Shown here one piece after another: positions 543 to 15,202 of a DNA stretch of 26,370 nucleotides. Made by a program: the position numbers and the translations under genes. Origin of the DNA: a virus; the IMG/VR virus record IMGVR_UViG_3300033143_003611, positions 1 to 26,370 of that record; one strand, 5' to 3'. Under the pieces are notes generated by a model, which was given only the letters and a program-made list of their open reading frames with translations, was not told the DNA's origin and made no database searches. Position 1 is the stretch's first letter; each line of letters opens with the position of its first letter.

Positions 543-738
543 ATTGACTGCTGTATTGAGTAGATTATCTGCCATTGAGTTTGATAATCTACTCAGACCA
601 AAAAAACCAAAGATGAGAAAGGCCATTAAGAAGGTTGTATTTGATGGTCTTACTTATGAAGAAGCTGGCAATGATTGTGGTGTTACCAAGCAAGCTATTT
701 ATGAACAATTGAAAGGTATGGAGGAGGCAATTGAGTAA
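535..738 (+). CDS. Small TrfB/KorA-like helix-turn-helix protein
   Basis: This is a 67-residue protein from the TTG start at 535; an in-frame ATG at 514 would add 7 residues but lacks a well-placed ribosome binding site. Residues about 28-62 read as a helix-turn-helix: VVFDGLTYEEAG, then CGVTKQAIYEQLKGM. This closely follows the pattern of the TrfB/KorA repressor family (hydrophobic helix, DG, turn, LTR/TKxAI recognition helix). A role in DNA binding and local transcription control is inferred from this. The protein is much shorter than plasmid KorA and has only the DNA-binding part. It overlaps the ligase by 8 nt and the RuvC-like gene by 8 nt, so the three genes are probably translationally coupled. 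A sigma-region-4-like adaptor is an alternative. Confidence 0.6.
   Translation: MSKLTAVLSRLSAIEFDNLLRPKKPKMRKAIKKVVFDGLTYEEAGNDCGVTKQAIYEQLKGMEEAIE
721..733 (+). promoter_or_regulatory. Ribosome binding site with TTG start for the RuvC-like gene
   Basis: GAGGAGG at 721-727 precedes TTG at 731-733 by 3 nt from the full motif, or 6 nt from its GAGG core. No ATG is available near the start of the D-containing first strand of the RuvC-like protein, so TTG is the best start. Confidence 0.6.
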
Positions 739-1881: not shown

Positions 1882-2279
1882 CAATATACCTCGCTGATTG
1901 TTAAGTGGTGGCCCCCACTGCGTAAAATAGTACGGAATTTATCAAATGTTTTACCACTATTTAGAATAGCCCTGTTACCTTGCAATTTACCCAAAGACTC
2001 ACCCAACAAAACACAACCTGCGGTATTGTTCACAACATTCCCAGGGTGAAAAAGGACATATGACCTGTCAGGGACATTTGTTATTTCAAAAGCATCTGGG
2101 TAGTTTTGGGAAGAGTATGGCTTTACTGTGTACTGTTGAGCAGGGATGCTTGATTTGTTGGCACGGTTTTCAAGGTCAGGAGGCTCAAGGGTAAAACAAA
2201 ACACTTCTTTGTTTATTTTTAGAATGCCAATTGTGCCTTGGGCAGTTTCTTCGAGTCGGATCAATTCTAATATTTTCAC
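1881..2279 (-). CDS. DUF5675 family protein
   Basis: I place the start at GTG 2279, which overlaps the TGA of the upstream gene (GTGA, 2279-2276) and has AAGG about 10 nt upstream; a longer reading frame to 2315 would start with an unlikely cysteine-rich leader inside the upstream gene. The 132-residue product has the DUF5675 pattern: FTLEPP near the N-terminus, IPAQQYTV, a central segment with VLFHPGN, then AGCVLLGESLG. The family occurs in phages and mobile elements; its His and Cys motif resembles the layout of L,D-transpeptidase-like folds, but no activity is established. Its position beside the peptidase and holin-like genes suggests a cell-wall-related role. Confidence 0.75.
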   Translation of the reverse strand: MKILELIRLEETAQGTIGILKINKEVFCFTLEPPDLENRANKSSIPAQQYTVKPYSSQNYPDAFEITNVPDRSYVLFHPGNVVNNTAGCVLLGESLGKLQGNRAILNSGKTFDKFRTILRSGGHHLTISEVY

Positions 2280-2560
2280 GATGACACCTTGAAGAAATGG
2301 ACAACAGCATACCACAGGGCACCTAGAAGGGCAACCACTAGCCCGTTGGAGACAGTTGTAACCACAACACCCTTGGCTTTGCTGCCTGTTCGTCTAACAT
2401 CTGACATAAAATTATGGTTTGCTTCCCATTCTGGTTTTGATGCTTGGCAAATTTCCATTTGTTGGTGGTGTTGGTAGTGCTTTTCGGCTTCTACATAGAA
2501 AGCTGTATGGTGCTCCTCAAGAGCTTCCTTGAATGCATCTTTGATTTCATCTTTGTTCAT
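2276..2560 (-). CDS. Holin-like small membrane protein
   Basis: This is a 94-residue protein with a long charged, histidine-rich N-terminal helix (about residues 1-50, EEHHTAFYVEAEKHYQHHQQ) and one strongly hydrophobic segment near the C-terminus (about residues 65-90, VVVTTVSNGLVVALLGALWY). The ATG at 2560 directly abuts the TAA of the peptidase gene. Small phage proteins with an FYxxxEKHYxHH N-terminal segment and a single membrane helix often sit next to endolysins and are annotated as holins or holin accessory proteins. Topology and location support this; there is no direct evidence of pore formation. The C-terminus overlaps the DUF5675 start by 4 nt. Confidence 0.55.
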   Translation of the reverse strand: MNKDEIKDAFKEALEEHHTAFYVEAEKHYQHHQQMEICQASKPEWEANHNFMSDVRRTGSKAKGVVVTTVSNGLVVALLGALWYAVVHFFKVSS

Positions 2561-3187
2561 TTACAATCCCCAATTTATTACATCATAGTCATACATTGGA
2601 TACAAAGACCAGTGTATGTGCGTGTCATGTCGGTAGTGCATAGGGCTGTCTGGTTTTACATGCTCCACAAACAATTCACCCCTTGTGGTGCCATGGTGTT
2701 GCAGAATAAGAGGGTGCATGTATTCAAATATCCTCACGTCAATCCACGCCTTGCTTTTCGGGAAAGCTGAATAAATATTCTCCCAAAATGCAAAATTCCT
2801 TTCCCAGTCAAACAGGCTCAAATCTAACTCAGCAGTGAGTGATCTCCCCCCAATCCATATTGGCATAACCTCCAACACCTCTTGCCCAAGATATTGTGTG
2901 GCATTAGTGCTGCCAAGGGTTAAATAATCAAAGTCAATACCACACAGACCTTGATGGCTCGCACCAGGGTGTCCAGTGCATGGCAAGCCATCATTTGGAG
3001 TGCAATCACCTATGTTCACACACCTTGCCATCCTGTCAGGGAAAACAGCATGGATGCTGAGCATTATAATCTTTAATGCATCAATCGTTGACCTGTGTAG
3101 ATACTTACAGCAATCTTGCCCATTATACAGATAGCACGAGCTGCTGCCCCAAGTTGCAGCAAGTTTAATAAACTTGGGGCTTATTAC
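2561..3187 (-). CDS. M15-type peptidoglycan peptidase, probably made by -1 frameshift from the upstream gene
   Basis: The first ATG is at 3064 (167 residues), but coding-looking sequence in the same frame (KFIKLAATWGSS, YLYNGQDCCKYL, STIDALKI) runs back to the slippery site at 3193-3187 with no ATG, GTG or TTG in it. I therefore begin the feature at the first -1 frame codon, GTA 3187. Numbered from M3064, SH37QGLCGID44 matches the zinc-site spacing of D-Ala-D-Ala peptidases (SxHxxGxAxD: His and Asp seven apart), and DTH149IH151W near the C-terminus matches their HxH motif. This suggests a zinc D,D- or L,D-peptidase cutting peptidoglycan stem peptides, that is an endolysin or virion-associated lysin. 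It is followed without gap by the holin-like gene. The family call rests on motif spacing only, so it is moderate. Confidence 0.6.
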   Translation of the reverse strand, partial: VISPKFIKLAATWGSSSCYLYNGQDCCKYLHRSTIDALKIIMLSIHAVFPDRMARCVNIGDCTPNDGLPCTGHPGASHQGLCGIDFDYLTLGSTNATQYLGQEVLEVMPIWIGGRSLTAELDLSLFDWERNFAFWENIYSAFPKSKAWIDVRIFEYMHPLILQHHGTTRGELFVEHVKPDSPMHYRHDTHIHWSLYPMYDYDVINWGL

Positions 3188-3193
3188 TTTCCC
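3146..3193 (-). promoter_or_regulatory. Putative programmed -1 ribosomal frameshift site (GGGAAAG plus hairpin)
   Basis: Read on the - strand: codons TTG GGA AAG TAA end the 113-residue gene, giving the canonical heptamer G GGA AAG (3193-3187) in the zero frame, the same heptamer as in the lambda G/GT site. A 6-nt spacer TAATAA follows (3186-3181), then a perfect 10-bp stem GCCCCAAGTT (3180-3171) / AACTTGGGGC (3155-3146) with a 15-nt loop. After a -1 slip the next codons are GTA ATA AGC, in the peptidase frame. No T-run follows the hairpin, so it is not a typical terminator. Confidence 0.8.
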
Positions 3194-3525
3194 AATGCAG
3201 GGTCAATATTCTCATAGAGTGGAAGGATGCACATCACACCATTTTTCCAAAGAAAAGGAGATACATATAGATCATCAACTCCAACCAATTCAACAGCAAT
3301 TATACCATCCTGAATGCCTCTCTCCAGAAAATTCCAGTCGAACACCTTGTGCTGTCTCGCAGGCACAGTGTGCTCCTCACTCTCAATGGCAAAACTACCA
3401 TTGGAACGACGTGTGCTGATTAAAATTATTTGGTCTGCATCACTATCATTATAAACATCAATGGCTGATTGATAGTTACCCGCAGGTTCACCACTTACCA
3501 TGTATGGAATTAATATTCTTTTCAT
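3184..3525 (-). CDS. Unrecognised 113-residue protein upstream of the frameshift site
   Basis: ATG at 3525 overlaps the stop of the upstream gene (ATGA), with AGAGAAA as weak SD. I do not recognise a family. The sequence alternates short hydrophobic strands and turns (RILIPYMVSG, AIDVYND, QIILISTRR, GIIAVELVGV, LYVSPFLW), so it is probably a small all-beta protein. It follows the tail-fibre gene and another small protein, in the region where phages keep fibre-associated and host-contact proteins. Its last codons form a frameshift signal that can extend it by 208 residues into the M15-type peptidase, making a 321-residue fusion. A role as a targeting or virion-anchoring domain for the peptidase is inference. 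Confidence 0.7.
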   Translation of the reverse strand: MKRILIPYMVSGEPAGNYQSAIDVYNDSDADQIILISTRRSNGSFAIESEEHTVPARQHKVFDWNFLERGIQDGIIAVELVGVDDLYVSPFLWKNGVMCILPLYENIDPALGK

Positions 3526-4057: not shown

Positions 4058-5401
4058 TTATACCTCTGGAAGTCCATAATAATCTGCAATATCTTTTAGC
4101 CATTGATCAAACTCAGCACGGTTATAAACACCATGAGTTTCAAATTGACTACTTGATGCACCACCAATGCTTATTTGGCTCTCAACCTCATTTGCCACCA
4201 GCACAACATAGCCATCAAACATCAACAGAGGCCACGCCCCCACATCTCCATTTTGCCCCACAATAGAGAATTTATGAGTTAACTGTATTCGTTTTTTGGC
4301 ACCATTGCGCCAAATAGTAAACTGAGAGGACACAACCTCAGCACCAGGGCTTCCTATGGCTGTCATGGCAATGGTCTCATCAGATGTAATATATGATGCA
4401 GCATACGTTGGGGGTGACCCCTCATATATCTCTGTGCCTGTTTTTTGAGAGAAAATACCCTCACTGATGATGGCTGCTGTTGTTGCATTTAAAACAACTT
4501 TTCTTTGGGGGCTGCTGTTGTAATAAAATTCAATCTCATTTGCACCTCCATGCCGTATAAATACACCAGGGAAATTACTTGCAGAGTGGGCAGTTGCAAC
4601 AGTAAAGCTCCCAAGATCAGTGACAACCCCTGTTGAGTAGTTAACACTGCCAAGATGGAAAATTGTCGTAGACTCAGATGCTATAACAAACATTGTGTCT
4701 TCAGCACTATTAAAAATAGGTGGCACAACAAATTCAGTTGCTGAAGCATCCACATCAGATGGGGCAATTGTCCAATCAATAACATTTGATGAATCATATT
4801 TTACTAAAGCAAAGCCTGTTATACTAAGCCCAAAGTAGTCATTTGTGGGGGCAGGTAAACGGTTTTCTGTCCTGTCCCACTGTGCTGCATCTGGCAATGG
4901 AAATTCTTTCATATCTGCATCAAATTTTATTTGTTCAAATTCATCAGTTGTGCCATTGTACACTGCATAAGCAAATGCCCCTGTTTTGAAAGAGGCTCTA
5001 CTTCCTGTTTCTGTGACAATTGGTCTTACTCCAAGGCCAACTACATTTACAGTTACATCACTTGCCCCTGTAGTATTGTTAGTTGGCTTAAAGAGTATCT
5101 CCATACCTTCAAAATAATCAAAAGGAGACTCAAAGGAGCCAGCTTTTGCCAATACATATGCATCTGCTGCACCAGAGTCTGTATATTTTGCTCCACCTCC
5201 ACTGCCATATGCTGCCATTGCTTTTGCAAGCTGAGTTAATATTTCTCCTGCTCCTCCTGCTGGGGCTAGTGTTTGCCCTGTTGTTGACACTGCTGCTTCT
5301 AATTCTTTTGCTATTGAATTAAACTCACCAGCTCCGTACTTTGTAACAGTTATTGAATCAACTGCCCCATTGATATTTCCCTTTTCTTGATAGTCTCTCA
5401 T
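4058..5401 (-). CDS. Tail fibre protein
   Basis: This is a 447-residue protein; ATG 5401 is preceded by GAGGG. The N-terminus (residues 1-55, VTKYGAGEFNSIAKELEAAV, then GQTL) and the segment KYTDSGAADAYVL (about 74-86) are a pattern repeatedly seen in N-terminal and shaft regions of phage tail fibres. FEGMEILFKPTNNTTGASDVTVNV and its surroundings fit a shaft repeat. The remainder is beta-rich with no recognisable enzymatic motif and ends YNRAEFDQWLKDIADYYGL, perhaps a trimerisation or chaperone-binding tail. The likely role is host recognition at the baseplate periphery. It follows the gp48-fibre fusion in the operon. The family is clear; the receptor-binding region cannot be placed from sequence. 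Confidence 0.85.
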   Translation of the reverse strand: MRDYQEKGNINGAVDSITVTKYGAGEFNSIAKELEAAVSTTGQTLAPAGGAGEILTQLAKAMAAYGSGGGAKYTDSGAADAYVLAKAGSFESPFDYFEGMEILFKPTNNTTGASDVTVNVVGLGVRPIVTETGSRASFKTGAFAYAVYNGTTDEFEQIKFDADMKEFPLPDAAQWDRTENRLPAPTNDYFGLSITGFALVKYDSSNVIDWTIAPSDVDASATEFVVPPIFNSAEDTMFVIASESTTIFHLGSVNYSTGVVTDLGSFTVATAHSASNFPGVFIRHGGANEIEFYYNSSPQRKVVLNATTAAIISEGIFSQKTGTEIYEGSPPTYAASYITSDETIAMTAIGSPGAEVVSSQFTIWRNGAKKRIQLTHKFSIVGQNGDVGAWPLLMFDGYVVLVANEVESQISIGGASSSQFETHGVYNRAEFDQWLKDIADYYGLPEV

Positions 5402-5422
5402 AGTCCCTCAATAGTCAGAGTT

Positions 5423-6271
5423 TTATGCCATTTCAGAAGGGCTTAAAACTCTATTGTATATGTGTAAACCTTTTAAATGGTGATAACTATCTCCACTTGA
5501 TAAAATTACCCAGTCACCTCTTGCTGCAGATGTTGTTGCAGATGCATCTTCTGCCACATTTACTCCATCATGATACATGATTAATGTTGTATTGTCAGGG
5601 TCATAAGTTACACCCATCCTAAAGTTACCACTTTTTGATACCTTTGCTGTTTCAGATCCTACATCCATATAAGCAAATGTTTCACCATCATTGGCAACAG
5701 TTGAGCTGTCAAGTAATTGCAAATCACCACTATCAAAAAGCTTAGAGTTGGCTGAGTTTGTCCCAATAATATCTACATCAAATACAACTGACTTTGCAAA
5801 TAGTGGGCCAGGAGAGTTTCCTACATATTGAATTTCAAACAAATCAGCATTTCTTGTGGTAGCTGTTGAACTTATTATATCAGCAGCCCTTGTTACTGCA
5901 GTTGTGGTTGTAGGAATGTGTGAAGTTACACCAGCAGACTCTTCTAGCTGTGCACCCCACACATATAAGCCAGACGACCCATCCCCTGTATAATACGAAG
6001 TGGTGCCATTGTGTAAAACAATAACAATGTATGAATTTGTAGCTGTGGCAGTAGCAGTAACTGAACAGCGATACCATCCGTTGTTTATTTCCTGTATATG
6101 ACCAACTCCACCAAGAGTGTTATGGATAATTCCAAGATCTAGGTCAAAAACAACCCGCCCAAAATTCCCATCCGTACTATTGTATAACTGTATATCCACA
6201 TACTCTACTTCTTCTTTTTTTACAAAAATGGAGCCTGTCAACATGCCTACAACTCCAGCAGCTTGAGACAC
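5423..6271 (-). CDS. C-terminal part of the gp48/tail-fibre fusion, separated by an in-frame TAA
   Basis: This 282-residue frame is the direct continuation of the upstream gene: both are in one frame and are separated only by TAA at 6274-6272. The codon after the stop is GTG, which could be a start, but no convincing SD lies before it. The first residues (GSIFVKK, VDIQLYNSTDG, INNGWYRCSV, GLYVWGAQLEE) complete a carbohydrate-binding-like jelly-roll module whose first strands (FNFSQWAK, TTAPDSSNAADKLVEN) are at the end of the upstream frame. The linker SHIPTTTTAVTRAADII follows, then a second lectin-like domain (VVFDVDIIG, DGVNVAEDA, LKGLHIYNRVLSPSEM). It is probably a host-surface-binding tip. 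It may be a broken piece, a separate protein from the GTG, or a read-through product. Confidence 0.7.
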   Translation of the reverse strand: MSQAAGVVGMLTGSIFVKKEEVEYVDIQLYNSTDGNFGRVVFDLDLGIIHNTLGGVGHIQEINNGWYRCSVTATATATNSYIVIVLHNGTTSYYTGDGSSGLYVWGAQLEESAGVTSHIPTTTTAVTRAADIISSTATTRNADLFEIQYVGNSPGPLFAKSVVFDVDIIGTNSANSKLFDSGDLQLLDSSTVANDGETFAYMDVGSETAKVSKSGNFRMGVTYDPDNTTLIMYHDGVNVAEDASATTSAARGDWVILSSGDSYHHLKGLHIYNRVLSPSEMA

Positions 6272-7792
6272 TTAGTGCACCGATAGCCCTGTATTTTCTA
6301 CCAGCTTATCCGCAGCATTGCTGGAATCAGGAGCAGTAGTGACATTCGTGGATATGGTTGCATTTAGCTTCGCCCATTGGCTGAAGTTAAATGAGTCAGA
6401 GGCAATAAGTAGGTTTGTTGAAGCATCCTCAAAAAGTTGTGTGCTTTGCGCAGCAAGGTTATTCGGGTTGTATGCAATCCGCTCTGTGTTTATAGCAGCT
6501 ATCTGTAAAACACCTGAACTATCATAATAGGTTGCCGTTGATGCTCTACTTACAAAAGCATCTGTTGAAGGCATATATGAAGAAGCAAAAGCTAGTGCTT
6601 CTTCTTGCCCAAAAGATGTATAAAACACAAAGCCTAGAGGAGATGCACTGCCATCTGCTGTTATGTTAAAATCTACAGATGCACCTAATAAGGTGACAAT
6701 TGCTGGCGACTCAACACGCACCCATTGATCAAATTCAGTCTTTGTGTCTGTTGAGCCTGCATCAACATTAGTGAAACCAGCATCATTATACCCAGCAATG
6801 AAGCCAAAGTCAGAGATGCCCTGTCCACTAGGCACATATATATAGATTGAGGGTGTTCTATTGCCAACAGCATAGCTGCCAGAAACACGAGCAAAAAGGA
6901 CTTGTGTGCCAGTTAAATTTATATGCTTTGTCACATGTGGATAATTCCCACTTGGAGATGGGATATCAAATGATCTGGCGCTATTCCAGAATCCTCCAAT
7001 GCCTGGGTTCCACACAGCATTGTATTGATCACCTGAGTAAGTCAAGGTGTTAGTATTTGACCCCTCAAGCAGCAGCCCTTCATCTTCGAATCTCGGTGCA
7101 TCGGGGTCTGCTACGACAAGTAGACCATCGACAAAGTACGTTGCTATAGATCCTCTCTTGAAAATTATAGGAGTAATGCCAATAACCACATTAAGATTGC
7201 TGATCAAAGGCATATAGCATGTTGTGCTGGCTTCAATGTATATAACTGGGACAGCATTTGATCGTAAAATTTTGCGAAGAAGACACAAAACCTTCACCCT
7301 GTCAACTGTGCTTTCTTCTGGGATTATAACAAACAATAAAAATTTTGACCCTATTATTCCACCAAACTGAAATTCAAAAGTGTATTCAAAATCTTCAAGA
7401 TAATCTTCTCCAGGAATCAATATAATCCCTTCATCTGGGAATATATCATCTACAAGCTCTTGAAACTCACTTAGTGTGACAAAAGGCTTTTTTCTTAATC
7501 TTATTATTACATCTGATCTTCTTTGCTCTATGCTATCAGCAATGCCAAGGCACTCATCAGGAAGCCCAACTGACTCTTCCCAATCAGTTAAAAGGTCAAC
7601 AGTGTTTCTGATATATGCTTCTTCTGAAAGAATTTCTACAGTCTGCTGGTTCTTGTTATGGGCAGGAGCCAAGCTATTAATCAACTTTCTTGTATTAGAA
7701 TCTTGATTATTTTTGTTGCCCCATGCCCTGCCATCAGGTAAGGAATTGGACATTTGCTGGGATGTGTCTTTAGGTGCTTTGAATATGCTCAT
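6272..7792 (-). CDS. gp48/YmfQ-type (DUF2313) baseplate protein fused to fibre-like modules
   Basis: Residues 1-190 match the Mu gp48/YmfQ (DUF2313) family: LPDGRAWGNKN at 19-29, EEAYIRNTVDLLTDWEESVGLPDE at about 57-80, then IEQRRSDVIIRL. This family lies next to gp47 in Mu-like baseplates. From about residue 211 the protein continues into two fibre-like modules with a shared opening (RGSIATYF at 213-220 and RASTATYY at 416-423), which is not part of gp48 proper. The frame ends inside the second module at LSVH before TAA, and the missing remainder of that module follows in frame in the next reading frame. ATG 7792 overlaps the gp47 stop by one base (TAATG). It probably links baseplate to receptor-binding modules. 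Confidence 0.8.
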   Translation of the reverse strand: MSIFKAPKDTSQQMSNSLPDGRAWGNKNNQDSNTRKLINSLAPAHNKNQQTVEILSEEAYIRNTVDLLTDWEESVGLPDECLGIADSIEQRRSDVIIRLRKKPFVTLSEFQELVDDIFPDEGIILIPGEDYLEDFEYTFEFQFGGIIGSKFLLFVIIPEESTVDRVKVLCLLRKILRSNAVPVIYIEASTTCYMPLISNLNVVIGITPIIFKRGSIATYFVDGLLVVADPDAPRFEDEGLLLEGSNTNTLTYSGDQYNAVWNPGIGGFWNSARSFDIPSPSGNYPHVTKHINLTGTQVLFARVSGSYAVGNRTPSIYIYVPSGQGISDFGFIAGYNDAGFTNVDAGSTDTKTEFDQWVRVESPAIVTLLGASVDFNITADGSASPLGFVFYTSFGQEEALAFASSYMPSTDAFVSRASTATYYDSSGVLQIAAINTERIAYNPNNLAAQSTQLFEDASTNLLIASDSFNFSQWAKLNATISTNVTTAPDSSNAADKLVENTGLSVH

Positions 7793-9132
7793 TATGCGAA
7801 TGTCACATTGCCAAGTGATGCAATCTCACCATCACTGACTATGATATCTCCTGTTGGGGTTGATAATGAAAATGAAGTCAAAAATTCACCAGTTACAAGA
7901 TCTTGAGTATTTTGAATAGATCCTAGATAGCTTGCTTCAGTTATTGATTCTTCAAAGTCTGCAGAGTCCTCAAAAAAAGCACTTAGTTGTGCTTCAACAG
8001 CACTCCTCATTGTTGTTGTATCAGGAGACAGAGAAGTAAAACCAAAGTCAGTTGGGACAAGAGTAGGAGCATTGACAAAGACATCACTCTCAGCAGTATG
8101 GGCTGGCATAGCCCCTTCTTCTATCACAGCAGCCTTTGTAAGGGCTATGATTGGGGTTGTTGGAGTTATTGGAGTATCATCATCTCTCAAAAAGAATACA
8201 GAAGTTTGACCAGGAATAGGGTCAAGATACCCTCCAGAGCCAGATGTTGTAGGGATTTTAACAAATGCTCTTGTATTCCCAGCAATAGATAAAGCAGCTA
8301 ATTTTACTTGGTCAGAAGTAAATACACCGCTAATGATTGATCTTGATAGGATGATTCTCGCTCTGTAGTCATTGTTTGATTCAATCCCAGCGCCACCAGC
8401 TATTCCGCTGAACTGTACTAGCCCAGAATCATCTGCGCCTGTTATTAATGGGTCTATTGCTACTGAAGCCCCTGAGTCAAGATTTGCTTGTATCCCTGTT
8501 TCAATAGACACAACTGGCACATCTGCTATATCAGCACCATACACAGGTGACCCAGTTGCTGGAGTTGTAGGGGTTGTTGATATCTCATATGTAAAACTGT
8601 CTCTTGCCCCTACAGATGCAGTAAAAGTGCCATTGTATTCTGGCTCTGTCACACCTGAAATAGTAACATCAATTCCAGTAGCAAGAGCATGGTCAGTAGC
8701 AAGCTCAGCAGTAACTGTTGAACCACTTCTAGTTAAAGTAACAATTGCCTGGCTAACTGCATTTATAGTTGCAGCAGAAGAGGATACATAATTTATTCCA
8801 TTACTCCCCCTCATAGTGGAGCCACTAGGAATAACAGTTGTTGCAACCCCTCCTAGGGTGATCCTACCACTGGCGGTGGAGTCGGACTTCCTTGGCAAAT
8901 CTTCGTAGTCACCCCACCTATCGAGGTATTCATCAGTAGCAGTTTGAGGGAACATTTGCTTTTCAAGATCTCTTATTAGGTAAGAGATCTCTTGAGCAAG
9001 TGCTGCATTCCCATCACCAAAAGCCCTTGCCCAACTGCCAAATACAGTAGGGTCTACATTTGGCAGTTGGTTCCTGAACTCTGCTCTAATTAGATTTGCT
9101 AAATCACTAAACTGTGGGTAATTGAGAGGCAT
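7792..9132 (-). CDS. Baseplate J-like protein (Mu gp47 type)
   Basis: This is a 446-residue protein with the Mu gp47/P2 J pattern: N-terminal FRNQLPNVDPTVFGSWARAF, ATDEYLDRWGDYEDLPRK at about 65-82, SGSTMRGSNGINYVSSSAATI at about 102-122, later SNNDYRARIILSR and PIIALTKAAVIEE. Such proteins form the wedge ring of contractile-tail baseplates. Between about 128 and 195 there is an extra domain (ELATDHALATGIDVTISGV, YNGTFTASV), like the small beta domains often inserted in phage structural proteins. ATG 9132 has GGAG 8 nt upstream and overlaps the gp46 gene by 26 nt, which suggests coupled translation with gp46. Confidence 0.9.
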   Translation of the reverse strand: MPLNYPQFSDLANLIRAEFRNQLPNVDPTVFGSWARAFGDGNAALAQEISYLIRDLEKQMFPQTATDEYLDRWGDYEDLPRKSDSTASGRITLGGVATTVIPSGSTMRGSNGINYVSSSAATINAVSQAIVTLTRSGSTVTAELATDHALATGIDVTISGVTEPEYNGTFTASVGARDSFTYEISTTPTTPATGSPVYGADIADVPVVSIETGIQANLDSGASVAIDPLITGADDSGLVQFSGIAGGAGIESNNDYRARIILSRSIISGVFTSDQVKLAALSIAGNTRAFVKIPTTSGSGGYLDPIPGQTSVFFLRDDDTPITPTTPIIALTKAAVIEEGAMPAHTAESDVFVNAPTLVPTDFGFTSLSPDTTTMRSAVEAQLSAFFEDSADFEESITEASYLGSIQNTQDLVTGEFLTSFSLSTPTGDIIVSDGEIASLGNVTFA

Positions 9133-11038: not shown

Positions 11039-12411
11039 GCTTGTAGCACCTCTATATCACCAATCAAGCGGTCAGCAGGCAATGTTGGGTTAAGCCCTCT
11101 TAGCTCAATTGTCCTGTTCTTTAGATCACCTTCATTGGAAAGATCTTCTGCATATAGATTGTATGCCAGCTCATAAGATCCTATGCTGGTCAACTGCTCT
11201 ATTTCAGTAAGGCTGTATGCTTGCTGTTCTTTCTGATCAAGGACAGAAAGTGCTGTTGTTCTCAAATCATCAATAGCTGACCTAACATCCTTATCAGATT
11301 GGACTATATCTTTGTTTGAGGTATCAACTCTCATAAGCCTTTTATAATTTGACTCAACCACTGATCTGGCTTTTTTAATGCTGTCTGAGGTTAGATATTT
11401 TATCACTGAAACTTGCTCAAATGCAGTAATCAAAGCACAGACTCTTGTTGCATTTATCATGTTGAGTCTGTTTGTATTTCTCTTGACTCTTCCAGCAGTA
11501 GTTGCTGGCCACACAGGTATTGATGTTTCAACCTGTGATAAAGTAGTTGATGAATCAACTGGCACATCTGCTCTTTTGATATCCGAAAGAACAAGTGATA
11601 ATTTTGACCCAGCAGTTGTCTGCTTTATACTCTGATCAAACCCACTTGTTACATCAGCTGCAGTATTGCTTATTGCATCTGTTACACTACTGCTTCCATC
11701 ATCCAGATAAGTGCTGATTATTTGCCAAAGACCATTGTCAACAGCTCTTGCAACAAGAGTTTCAGCAAGCAAACCGCCATCTCTTACAATAGAGCTGACA
11801 TTGTTTATTATTGAATTGACTTCTTTTTCAAGTTCTGTCTGAGTTACTACTGCTGTTTTGAAATCATCATAAATAGAGCTGACAGACTCAAGAAGGTCAA
11901 ATTCAGCAACAGCTACACTAGAAGGATCAGTTGGTGGCACCCATGAATCTTGCAATTGCTCCTTCACTGCTTCTCTTGCTACATCACCTTTTGCAAAGAC
12001 AGTTTCTTGGGTAGGTCTATCTGTGCTTGGGGCAGATTGTGATCTACCTTGGGCAAATTCCAAGTTGAATTCTATTTCACCTACAGTTTTTTGAGATGCT
12101 TTCTTTGTATATGGAAGGGCATAAACTCTGAGGCTACCAAGCACTGGCATATCAAGTGTACCAGCTCCACTTGAATTTAATACTGCTTCAAGGGTGCTCG
12201 CATCATCCTGATAATTTTCCCCATGGACAAAAGCCTTCAGCCTAAATCTTGGGGATAGTCTGCCAATATCTTCAACAAATCTATCAGAGCTGTTTGGGTA
12301 CTCATGCAGAATTATGCGCCTACCTGCTTCAGTGAGAATTTCATCTCTAACAGAGAATGTAACACCCTTAAATCTTGCAGTTAATAACTCATCTACTCTA
12401 CTAATAGTCAT
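11035..12411 (-). CDS. Mu N-like DNA circularisation/tail protein (DNA_circ_N)
   Basis: This is a 458-residue protein. The N-terminal about 95 residues match the DNA circularisation N domain of Mu gpN: FKGVTFSVRDEILTEAGRRIILHEYPNSSDRFVEDIGR, then FRLKAFVHGENYQDDA and GTLDMPVLGSLRVYA. The rest is helical. In Mu this protein is a tail component and is injected, and has been linked to circular protection of the incoming DNA. It lies between tape measure and hub, exactly as in Mu. SD TAAGGTAA precedes ATG 12411. Confidence 0.85.
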   Translation of the reverse strand: MTISRVDELLTARFKGVTFSVRDEILTEAGRRIILHEYPNSSDRFVEDIGRLSPRFRLKAFVHGENYQDDASTLEAVLNSSGAGTLDMPVLGSLRVYALPYTKKASQKTVGEIEFNLEFAQGRSQSAPSTDRPTQETVFAKGDVAREAVKEQLQDSWVPPTDPSSVAVAEFDLLESVSSIYDDFKTAVVTQTELEKEVNSIINNVSSIVRDGGLLAETLVARAVDNGLWQIISTYLDDGSSSVTDAISNTAADVTSGFDQSIKQTTAGSKLSLVLSDIKRADVPVDSSTTLSQVETSIPVWPATTAGRVKRNTNRLNMINATRVCALITAFEQVSVIKYLTSDSIKKARSVVESNYKRLMRVDTSNKDIVQSDKDVRSAIDDLRTTALSVLDQKEQQAYSLTEIEQLTSIGSYELAYNLYAEDLSNEGDLKNRTIELRGLNPTLPADRLIGDIEVLQA

Positions 12412-14400: not shown

Positions 14401-14538
14401 AGCATTTATCTTTACTTTTGCTCTTTGAGAAGCAGCAGCAAATCTATCTGTCTGACGAGAAATTTTGGCTAGTGGTCCAGAGTACTTATCAATTATGTTG
14501 TATAGATACTCAACTGAAAATGCGATGGCATCACCTAT
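14401..14538 (-). other. Coding-like N-terminal extension of the tape measure gene without standard start
   Basis: In frame with the tape measure ATG, 46 codons upstream read FSVEYLYNIIDKYSGPLAKI, then SRQTDRFAAASQRAKVKINA, the usual style of tape measure N-termini (strand, IDKxSGPL, then a long helix). The codons include no ATG, GTG or TTG; the first is ATA at 14538 and the preceding in-frame stop is TGA at 14553-14551. An ATG at 14531 with AGGTG directly upstream lies in another frame and would join this frame after one extra T in the run 14520-14517. Confidence 0.6.
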
Positions 14539-14705
14539 TTTTTGTTTGCTTCACGGTTGATTTTTTCTAGTTCATCAATAGCAACACTGCACTCCCAAAG
14601 GCACATGTCAAGTGCTGATTGGTAGCTTATACCGCCTGTACTTGCAACGCAGACTCTGGTTGCTGTTCTTGGGTATTCTTCCCTGCCCCTTCCAAGGGCA
14701 TACCG
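14535..14705 (-). CDS. T-type extension of the tail assembly chaperone, reached by -1 frameshift
   Basis: After the slippery site at 14711-14705 the -1 frame stays open for 56 codons to TAG 14537-14535, beyond the TAA of the zero frame at 14629-14627. The extension (RYALGRGREEYPRTATRV, then SALDMCLWECSVAIDELEKI) is acidic and helical at its end, as T domains often are. In phages with long tails the G and GT chaperones help the tape measure and tube protein assemble, with GT being the minor form. Position between tube and tape measure is the canonical one. An ATG at 14720 in this frame is probably not used, since it overlaps G without an SD. Confidence 0.7.
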   Translation of the reverse strand, partial: RYALGRGREEYPRTATRVCVASTGGISYQSALDMCLWECSVAIDELEKINREANKK

Positions 14706-15202
14706 AAAAAAGAGCACCATTTTACCGCCATGTTGAATGCATCATCTGGGTGCATCTCTGACCATAACCCAGGAGTCATAACTTGGATGCCATCAACAAC
14801 ACAGACAGATCGCCTTAGAGTTTTACAAGCCATCTTTTGGAAGATGGAAAGGAACTCTGAAGCATCAACAGTCTCAGCAGAAAGCAGAGCCATGTGGAGC
14901 ACTTCTTCAATCCCTGCAGCTTCATCTTCAATAGTTTGAGCTTCATCTTTAAATGCCTTTACAGCTTCACCAGCAACAACTTGGAGGTCATCCTCATCAA
15001 TGGCATCTCTAAGGTGCTTGCTATTTTTAGCAATCTCCATTTGAGCACGACCAATCATCTGCTTGAGTTTGGTGTATTCTTTGACATGCTCCATTCCAGG
15101 CTCACGCAACTCAACAAAAGTAGAGTCAGTTGTTTTACCTTTAATGGTGAATGGAATTGATCGTTCTAGCTTGTACTGTGCTGTACCTTCATAAATAGAC
15201 AT
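14627..15202 (-). CDS. Tail assembly chaperone, G-type product
   Basis: This is a 191-residue protein from ATG 15202 with AAGGTAAG upstream. The N-terminus (AQYKLERSIPFTIKGKTTDSTFVELREPGMEHVKEYTKLKQ) is the short beta plus helical pattern of tail assembly chaperones that lie between tube and tape measure genes in Mu-like phages. Near its end the zero frame contains a slippery T TTT TTC followed by a hairpin, so most ribosomes end at TAA 14627 and a minority make the longer GT fusion. A middle helical part (DEAQTIEDEAAGIEEVLHMA) may hold the tape measure contact. The role is inferred from position and the frameshift; sequence similarity alone is modest. Confidence 0.8.
   Translation of the reverse strand: MSIYEGTAQYKLERSIPFTIKGKTTDSTFVELREPGMEHVKEYTKLKQMIGRAQMEIAKNSKHLRDAIDEDDLQVVAGEAVKAFKDEAQTIEDEAAGIEEVLHMALLSAETVDASEFLSIFQKMACKTLRRSVCVVDGIQVMTPGLWSEMHPDDAFNMAVKWCSFFGMPLEGAGKNTQEQQPESALQVQAV
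14685..14711 (-). promoter_or_regulatory. Programmed -1 frameshift site of the tail chaperone pair
   Basis: Zero-frame codons are TCT TTT TTC GGT, so T TTT TTC (14711-14705) is a perfect X XXY YYZ heptamer. After a 5-nt spacer GGTAT a hairpin follows: GCCCTT (14699-14694), loop GGA, AGGGGC (14690-14685), with one G-U pair. A -1 slip gives SFF-RYALG and continues to 14535. Confidence 0.8.

Follow-up and report, generated by a model that had tools for sequence, protein, structure and literature searches.

A probable programmed -1 frameshift site joining a small gene to a MepA-like peptidase gene in a metagenomic phage

Our analysis indicates that a programmed -1 ribosomal frameshift site probably lies at positions 3193-3187 on the minus strand of IMGVR_UViG_3300033143_003611, a 26,370-base virus record (the window) from a phage known solely from metagenome sequence. 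At this junction a 113-residue gene overlaps a frame encoding a MepA-like peptidase, and the sequence strongly suggests that frameshifting is the only efficient route we found by which the peptidase could be translated. Most ribosomes would terminate at the TAA at 3186-3184 and release the free 113-residue protein. A minority, as we infer for both the slippage and its rate, would be delayed by the hairpin that starts 6 nt further on, slip back from GGA-AAG to GGG-AAA and translate 208 more codons, giving a 321-residue product in which the small module is joined to the MepA-like peptidoglycan peptidase. A preliminary description of this DNA had proposed such a programmed -1 frameshift between the 113-residue protein and the peptidase. 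The proposal is well supported by the anatomy of the site, its statistics and a control from the same genome, whereas the family name given to the peptidase has to be changed from M15 to MepA-like.

The elements named in that description were all present on the minus strand, namely GGGAAAG at 3193-3187, a 6-nt spacer, a perfect 10-bp stem and an open -1 frame. The 113-residue gene (3184-3525) ends in ...ALGK-TAA, and its zero frame reads directly as TTG GGA AAG TAA TAA. The candidate slippery heptamer G_GGA_AAG (3187-3193) has the form X_XXY_YYZ, is in the zero frame and lies within the overlap of the two ORFs. The tandem stops TAA TAA (3181-3186) also form the 6-nt spacer, and they are followed by a candidate stimulatory hairpin (3146-3180) in which GCCCCAAGTT (3180-3171) pairs perfectly with AACTTGGGGC (3155-3146) around a 15-nt loop, folding at -16.2 kcal/mol. 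Measurements in E. coli rank G_GGA_AAG within the top three heptamers for efficiency when a stimulator is present, and stimulators usually begin 5-8 nt after the slippery site (PMC4066793); the 10-bp stem, starting 6 nt after the heptamer, falls in this range. The -1 frame is a 213-codon ORF (2561-3202, minus strand) that is shut just upstream by a TGA at 3205-3203. Its post-shift part begins with GTA at 3187 and meets no stop over the 208 codons that follow the heptamer, down to 2561. The predicted fusion of 113 + 208 = 321 residues has the length given in the preliminary description.

Other roles for the stem-loop were also considered. A terminator role for the 3180-3146 stem was rejected, as no T-run follows it. 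A pseudoknot between GCTGC in the loop and a downstream GCAGC was set aside because just 1 nt would need to span the 10-bp stem. An alternative pair of small hairpins is weaker than that stem (-8.5 versus -16.2 kcal/mol). An Rfam search returned nothing relevant, and no Shine-Dalgarno (SD)-like stimulator was found upstream of the GGGAAAG heptamer. A 17-bp palindrome, CAAGTTTATTAAACTTG (3160-3176, minus strand), lies inside the stem-loop and could be an operator-like site or fold into a small hairpin of its own that competes.

All statistics on the junction are post hoc, the site having been chosen first. Across 38 genes of the phage, 51 of 10,874 codons (0.47%) began an in-frame X_XXY_YYZ heptamer, and a perfect stem of 10 bp or more, spaced 3-9 nt away, followed 7 of 10,114 codon positions. 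Multiplied over the approximately five codons of overlap, these frequencies give a post hoc expectation of about 2 in 100,000 per junction, or less than 1 in 1000 over approximately 40 junctions. When the N-terminus of the peptidase was recoded synonymously, a stem of this kind appeared in only 2 of 4000 sequences, and a minimum free energy as low in 4 of 4000; the stem is therefore not imposed by the amino-acid sequence. Dinucleotide shuffling of the 47-nt stretch alone was less striking (z -2.3; 5/200). The window's genes contain 38 in-frame heptamers, and a shift would lead past the gene's own stop at just two of them, the one at 3193-3187 (206 codons beyond) and a T_TTT_TTC in the tail-chaperone gene (29 beyond). 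Both also have strong downstream folds. Among the genes listed, the heptamer at 3193-3187 is the only in-frame instance of GGGAAAG. A chance origin for the arrangement of heptamer, spacer, stem and open frame is unlikely.

The tail-chaperone gene is the classical location of the phage -1 frameshift, and the window has its own example. The tail-assembly-chaperone pair (14535-15202, minus strand) carries T_TTT_TTC at 14711-14705, a 5-nt spacer and a GCCC-hairpin at 14699-14685. Four relatives, L017, L018, L019 and L020, which were located through a baseplate protein with 53-65% identity, all retain T_TTT_TTC exactly 27 codons before the stop, followed after a 5-nt spacer by a GCCC-stem of 5-6 bp. 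Because the chaperone site shares the layout of the peptidase junction and is conserved in four relatives, this lineage appears to use -1 sites of one design, consisting of a heptamer, 5-6 nt and a GC-rich hairpin.

The main rival to frameshifting is weak initiation within the peptidase frame, either at an AUA at 3184-3182 or at an ATG at 3064. As the preliminary description had stated, and as the sequence confirms, this frame contains no ATG, GTG or TTG upstream of 3064. The AUA is a near-cognate codon overlapping the stop (TAATA), at which termination-reinitiation would yield a separate peptidase, by a lineage-specific change from a TAATG stop-start overlap. The phage does have TAATG overlaps at 7792, 9571, 22326 and 24304, and a GGGA located 5 nt upstream of the AUA pairs with the anti-SD at -4.2 kcal/mol, within the range of its other genes. 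The product, (M)SPKFIKLAATWG..., would also resemble a normal N-terminus. Nevertheless, we regard this start as unlikely. An AUA arises automatically from the tandem stop TAATAA, which also ends gene 21022, and the -16 kcal/mol stem begins only 1 nt after it. Moreover, initiation at the AUA would leave the heptamer, a motif at 0.47% of codons, its placement at the stop and the 6-nt spacing all to accident.

A start at the first ATG of the frame (3062-3064) would give a 167-residue peptidase and turn 3183-3065 into an untranslated leader containing the hairpin, with ISPKFIKLAATWG and YNGQDCCK left untranslated. Agreeing with such a start, residues 1-60 of the peptidase fail to align with MepA and the alignable part begins after the ATG, at residue 61. 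The preliminary description had called WGSS and YNGQDCCKYL, which precede the ATG, conserved-looking, but neither aligns with MepA and conservation could not be shown. Initiation at 3064 is still improbable, since the ATG has nearly no SD pairing (-0.9 kcal/mol) and is 119 nt past the stop of the upstream gene, a non-coding gap that would be unusual among such tightly packed genes. The 46 codons upstream of it are stop-free, although over this stretch 3 and 4 stops occur in the other two frames of the minus strand. The ATG also falls within a segment modelled as helix, with very low confidence. Codon bias proved uninformative as a test of peptidase translation. The peptidase departs from the usual codon usage of the phage from end to end (coding score 0.030, whereas the 5th percentile for coding stretches is 0.071). 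The part of the frame before the ATG scores -0.060, so coding potential is no proof of translation there. The atypical codon usage (2561-3202) suggests recent acquisition.

This codon usage also speaks for another explanation, in which the peptidase is a decaying gene or an assembly artefact that has lost its start codon and makes nothing useful; so does the in-frame TAA of a tail gene on the same contig, which shows that genes can be broken here. We consider that explanation very improbable. A second contig, L004 (13,040 bases), is 100% identical over 4,004 bases including the junction, and the MepA-like catalytic residues are all intact. Furthermore, decay or artefact would leave the stem and the heptamer unexplained. 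Programmed frameshifting at 3193-3187 is the reading that we prefer.

The peptidase had been described as M15-like; its sequence instead resembles MepA, an LAS endopeptidase, and places it near family M74. It is colinear with E. coli MepA and has the catalytic motifs in the same order, including SHQ-x5-D, D-V-(x)-R-I-F and H-x2-H-x-H. The segments VNIGD...GHPGASHQ...D, DVRIF and HYRHDTHIHW of the peptidase correspond to VLIGD...GHASHQ...D, DVTRIF and WFQHRAHMHV of MepA. In this alignment the H-x6-D motif (2933-2956, minus strand), with predicted zinc ligands H83 (2956-2954) and D90 (2935-2933), falls opposite MepA GHASHQTGLDVD, and a downstream H-I-H (2612-2620; H195 and H197), in the region of the third LAS ligand, falls opposite AHMH. 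With three of four gap-cost settings only 2-8 of 2000 shuffles aligned as well with MepA, while at the harshest gap cost the match was not significant (354 of 2000). No Pfam match was obtained at E values up to 1, including PF03411 (M74), for which a search of the window's own virus record was also empty, and nothing above chance was found in Pfam, PHROG or NCBIfam; we do not file the protein as M74. M15 likewise gave no Pfam match, and 259 of 500 shuffles aligned equally well with the M15-like lysin of L017. Since the MepA motifs align and this lysin does not, the peptidase is better called MepA-like than M15. Unlike MepA, it is phage-encoded, differs in its N-terminal 60 residues and has no visible signal peptide. 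A structure model of the peptidase, made without homologues, was unusable (pLDDT 32).

Neither protein had a detectable homologue in 50,697 phages, in 21 related virus records or in IMG/VR, apart from the contig with identical DNA, and none was found for the peptidase in 72,556 plasmids or in GTDB genomes. These searches included octapeptide scans, a degenerate motif pattern and loosened patterns, for which alignments with an invented second row were used, and the scans returned the identical contig alone or nothing. This absence of homologues counts against a programmed site at the junction. A plasmid match at E 0.9 was dismissed as a long Ig-like protein, and a short match to the polymerase relative L010 was spurious.

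The position of the junction in the genome points to a lysis function. The minus strand of the window encodes a contractile-tail module with portal, capsid, sheath (PHROG 165), tube, tail chaperones, tape measure, baseplate hub and wedges, and tail-fibre-like proteins, the portal and capsid being named from position and ORF size only. Downstream of the tail-fibre-like proteins, on the same strand, are a 180-residue gene, the 113-residue gene, the peptidase, a 94-residue protein, a DUF5675 protein and a DUF1353-like protein. The 94-residue protein (2276-2560, minus strand) has one C-terminal hydrophobic segment and matches only a PHROGs family without known function; its position makes it holin-like, and a holin role would fit. 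In L017 the equivalent slot contains a holin-like protein with an M15-like lysin behind it, and in L018 an M23-like lysin. Both lysins were named from motifs rather than database matches, and both have ordinary ATG starts, a point against frameshifting at the window's junction. In L020 the slot has a DUF5675 protein and a holin-like protein. This slot is likely a lysis cassette with exchangeable lysins, of which the window's peptidase would be the endolysin. With tail genes on one side, a holin-like gene on the other and unrelated lysins in the corresponding slot of the nearest relatives, the peptidase gene is more likely to encode an endolysin than a virion component.

Several further features were seen in these genomes. 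A tail protein of the window (7792-6272, minus strand) has a single in-frame TAA at 6274-6272, after which the same frame resumes (6271-5423); matches to PHROG 5939 and 34853 cover both halves, and the stop could reflect either a nonsense mutation or readthrough. A homologue of this tail gene in L020 also has an in-frame stop, a TGA at a different place (11800-11802). L004 carries the genome onward to genes for DNA ligase and DNA polymerase III, and in it DNA polymerase III alpha (4731-7471, minus strand) is encoded as two genes in different frames that overlap at 6851-6857. The helicase of L017 (15250-17925, minus strand) has 891 residues compared with 545 in L018, and the surplus resembles an intein that includes a homing endonuclease. 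Two perfect 13-bp inverted repeats with no known role lie within coding regions of the window (557-595 and 9031-9070).

The coding score of the 113-residue gene (0.238) is typical of the phage, and its product had no Pfam match. A low-confidence structure model (pLDDT 57) has as its nearest solved folds TM1070 (Z 8.2), carbohydrate-binding modules (Z 6.5-7.4) and the Anabaena sensory rhodopsin transducer (Z 6.5-6.8). With low confidence, the protein may be a sugar-binding-type beta-sandwich. Sugar binding has been proposed for the transducer (ASRT/ASRAH) superfamily, one family of which is fused to amidases (PMC2739507). Members of the superfamily are recognised by an eight-stranded sandwich and diagnostic residues; the likeness of the model to this superfamily is best taken as a lead and not as membership. 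XepA and YomS are beta-sandwich proteins encoded beside lysis genes in prophage lytic cassettes (PMC6834076), and the 113-residue protein would share both the fold type and the location. These two proteins score lower against its low-confidence model (YomS Z 6.1, XepA Z 5.5), a middling similarity, and no sequence similarity to them was found.

Based on these observations, we tentatively suggest, as a possibility somewhat short of even, that this phage makes an endolysin in two protein forms, with -1 frameshifting rather than an internal start setting the ratio of free module to fusion, so that frameshift efficiency would act as a control on lysis dose. The small module might bind a cell-wall or surface sugar, and the free module might assemble with the fusion as in two-polypeptide endolysins. 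If this is true, two-polypeptide endolysins can arise by a second genetic route, and the locus would offer a simple handle on how enzyme dose and binding-module ratio govern lysis. It would also mean that lysin genes can be overlooked or cut short by gene callers that insist on a start codon.

Well-documented frameshifting in phages mostly concerns tail chaperones, insertion sequences and a few structural proteins. Our search of the literature turned up no described lytic peptidase that is reached mainly by frameshifting; one genome note mentions uncharacterised putative frameshifts near predicted endolysins (PMC9671017). For the site itself, the nearest likeness is lambda G/GT, in which a -1 frameshift at G_GGA_AAG near the end of a small gene gives a low-level fusion beside an abundant short product (PMC5009743, PMC7618472). 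The heptamer, the direction and the location near the end of a small gene are the same here. Lambda G/GT, however, fuses a tail-tube-binding domain, whereas the present junction would fuse a cell-wall peptidase; in addition, the stop here adjoins the heptamer, and a separate chaperone frameshift is already present in this phage at 14711.

In function, the nearest analogy is with two-polypeptide endolysins such as CTP1L, CD27L, LysP7951 and LysIME-EF1, in which an internal start yields a free binding module besides the full-length enzyme (PMC4777826, PMC9430671, PMC7098653). In several of these the two forms assemble, as shown for CTP1L (PMC4777826) and, at 1:5, for LysP7951 (PMC9430671). If frameshifting occurs, the present locus would similarly make a full-length enzyme and a free module from one locus, and this analogy would be a better-precedented alternative to the virion-anchoring or dose-limiting roles suggested in the preliminary description. 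The named enzymes come from phages of Gram-positive bacteria. Their short form is C-terminal and arises from an internal start, whereas here the short form would be N-terminal, ending by ordinary termination at a stop before the enzyme, and the long form would arise by frameshifting. We therefore propose that this locus works like a two-polypeptide endolysin without being a member of that group.
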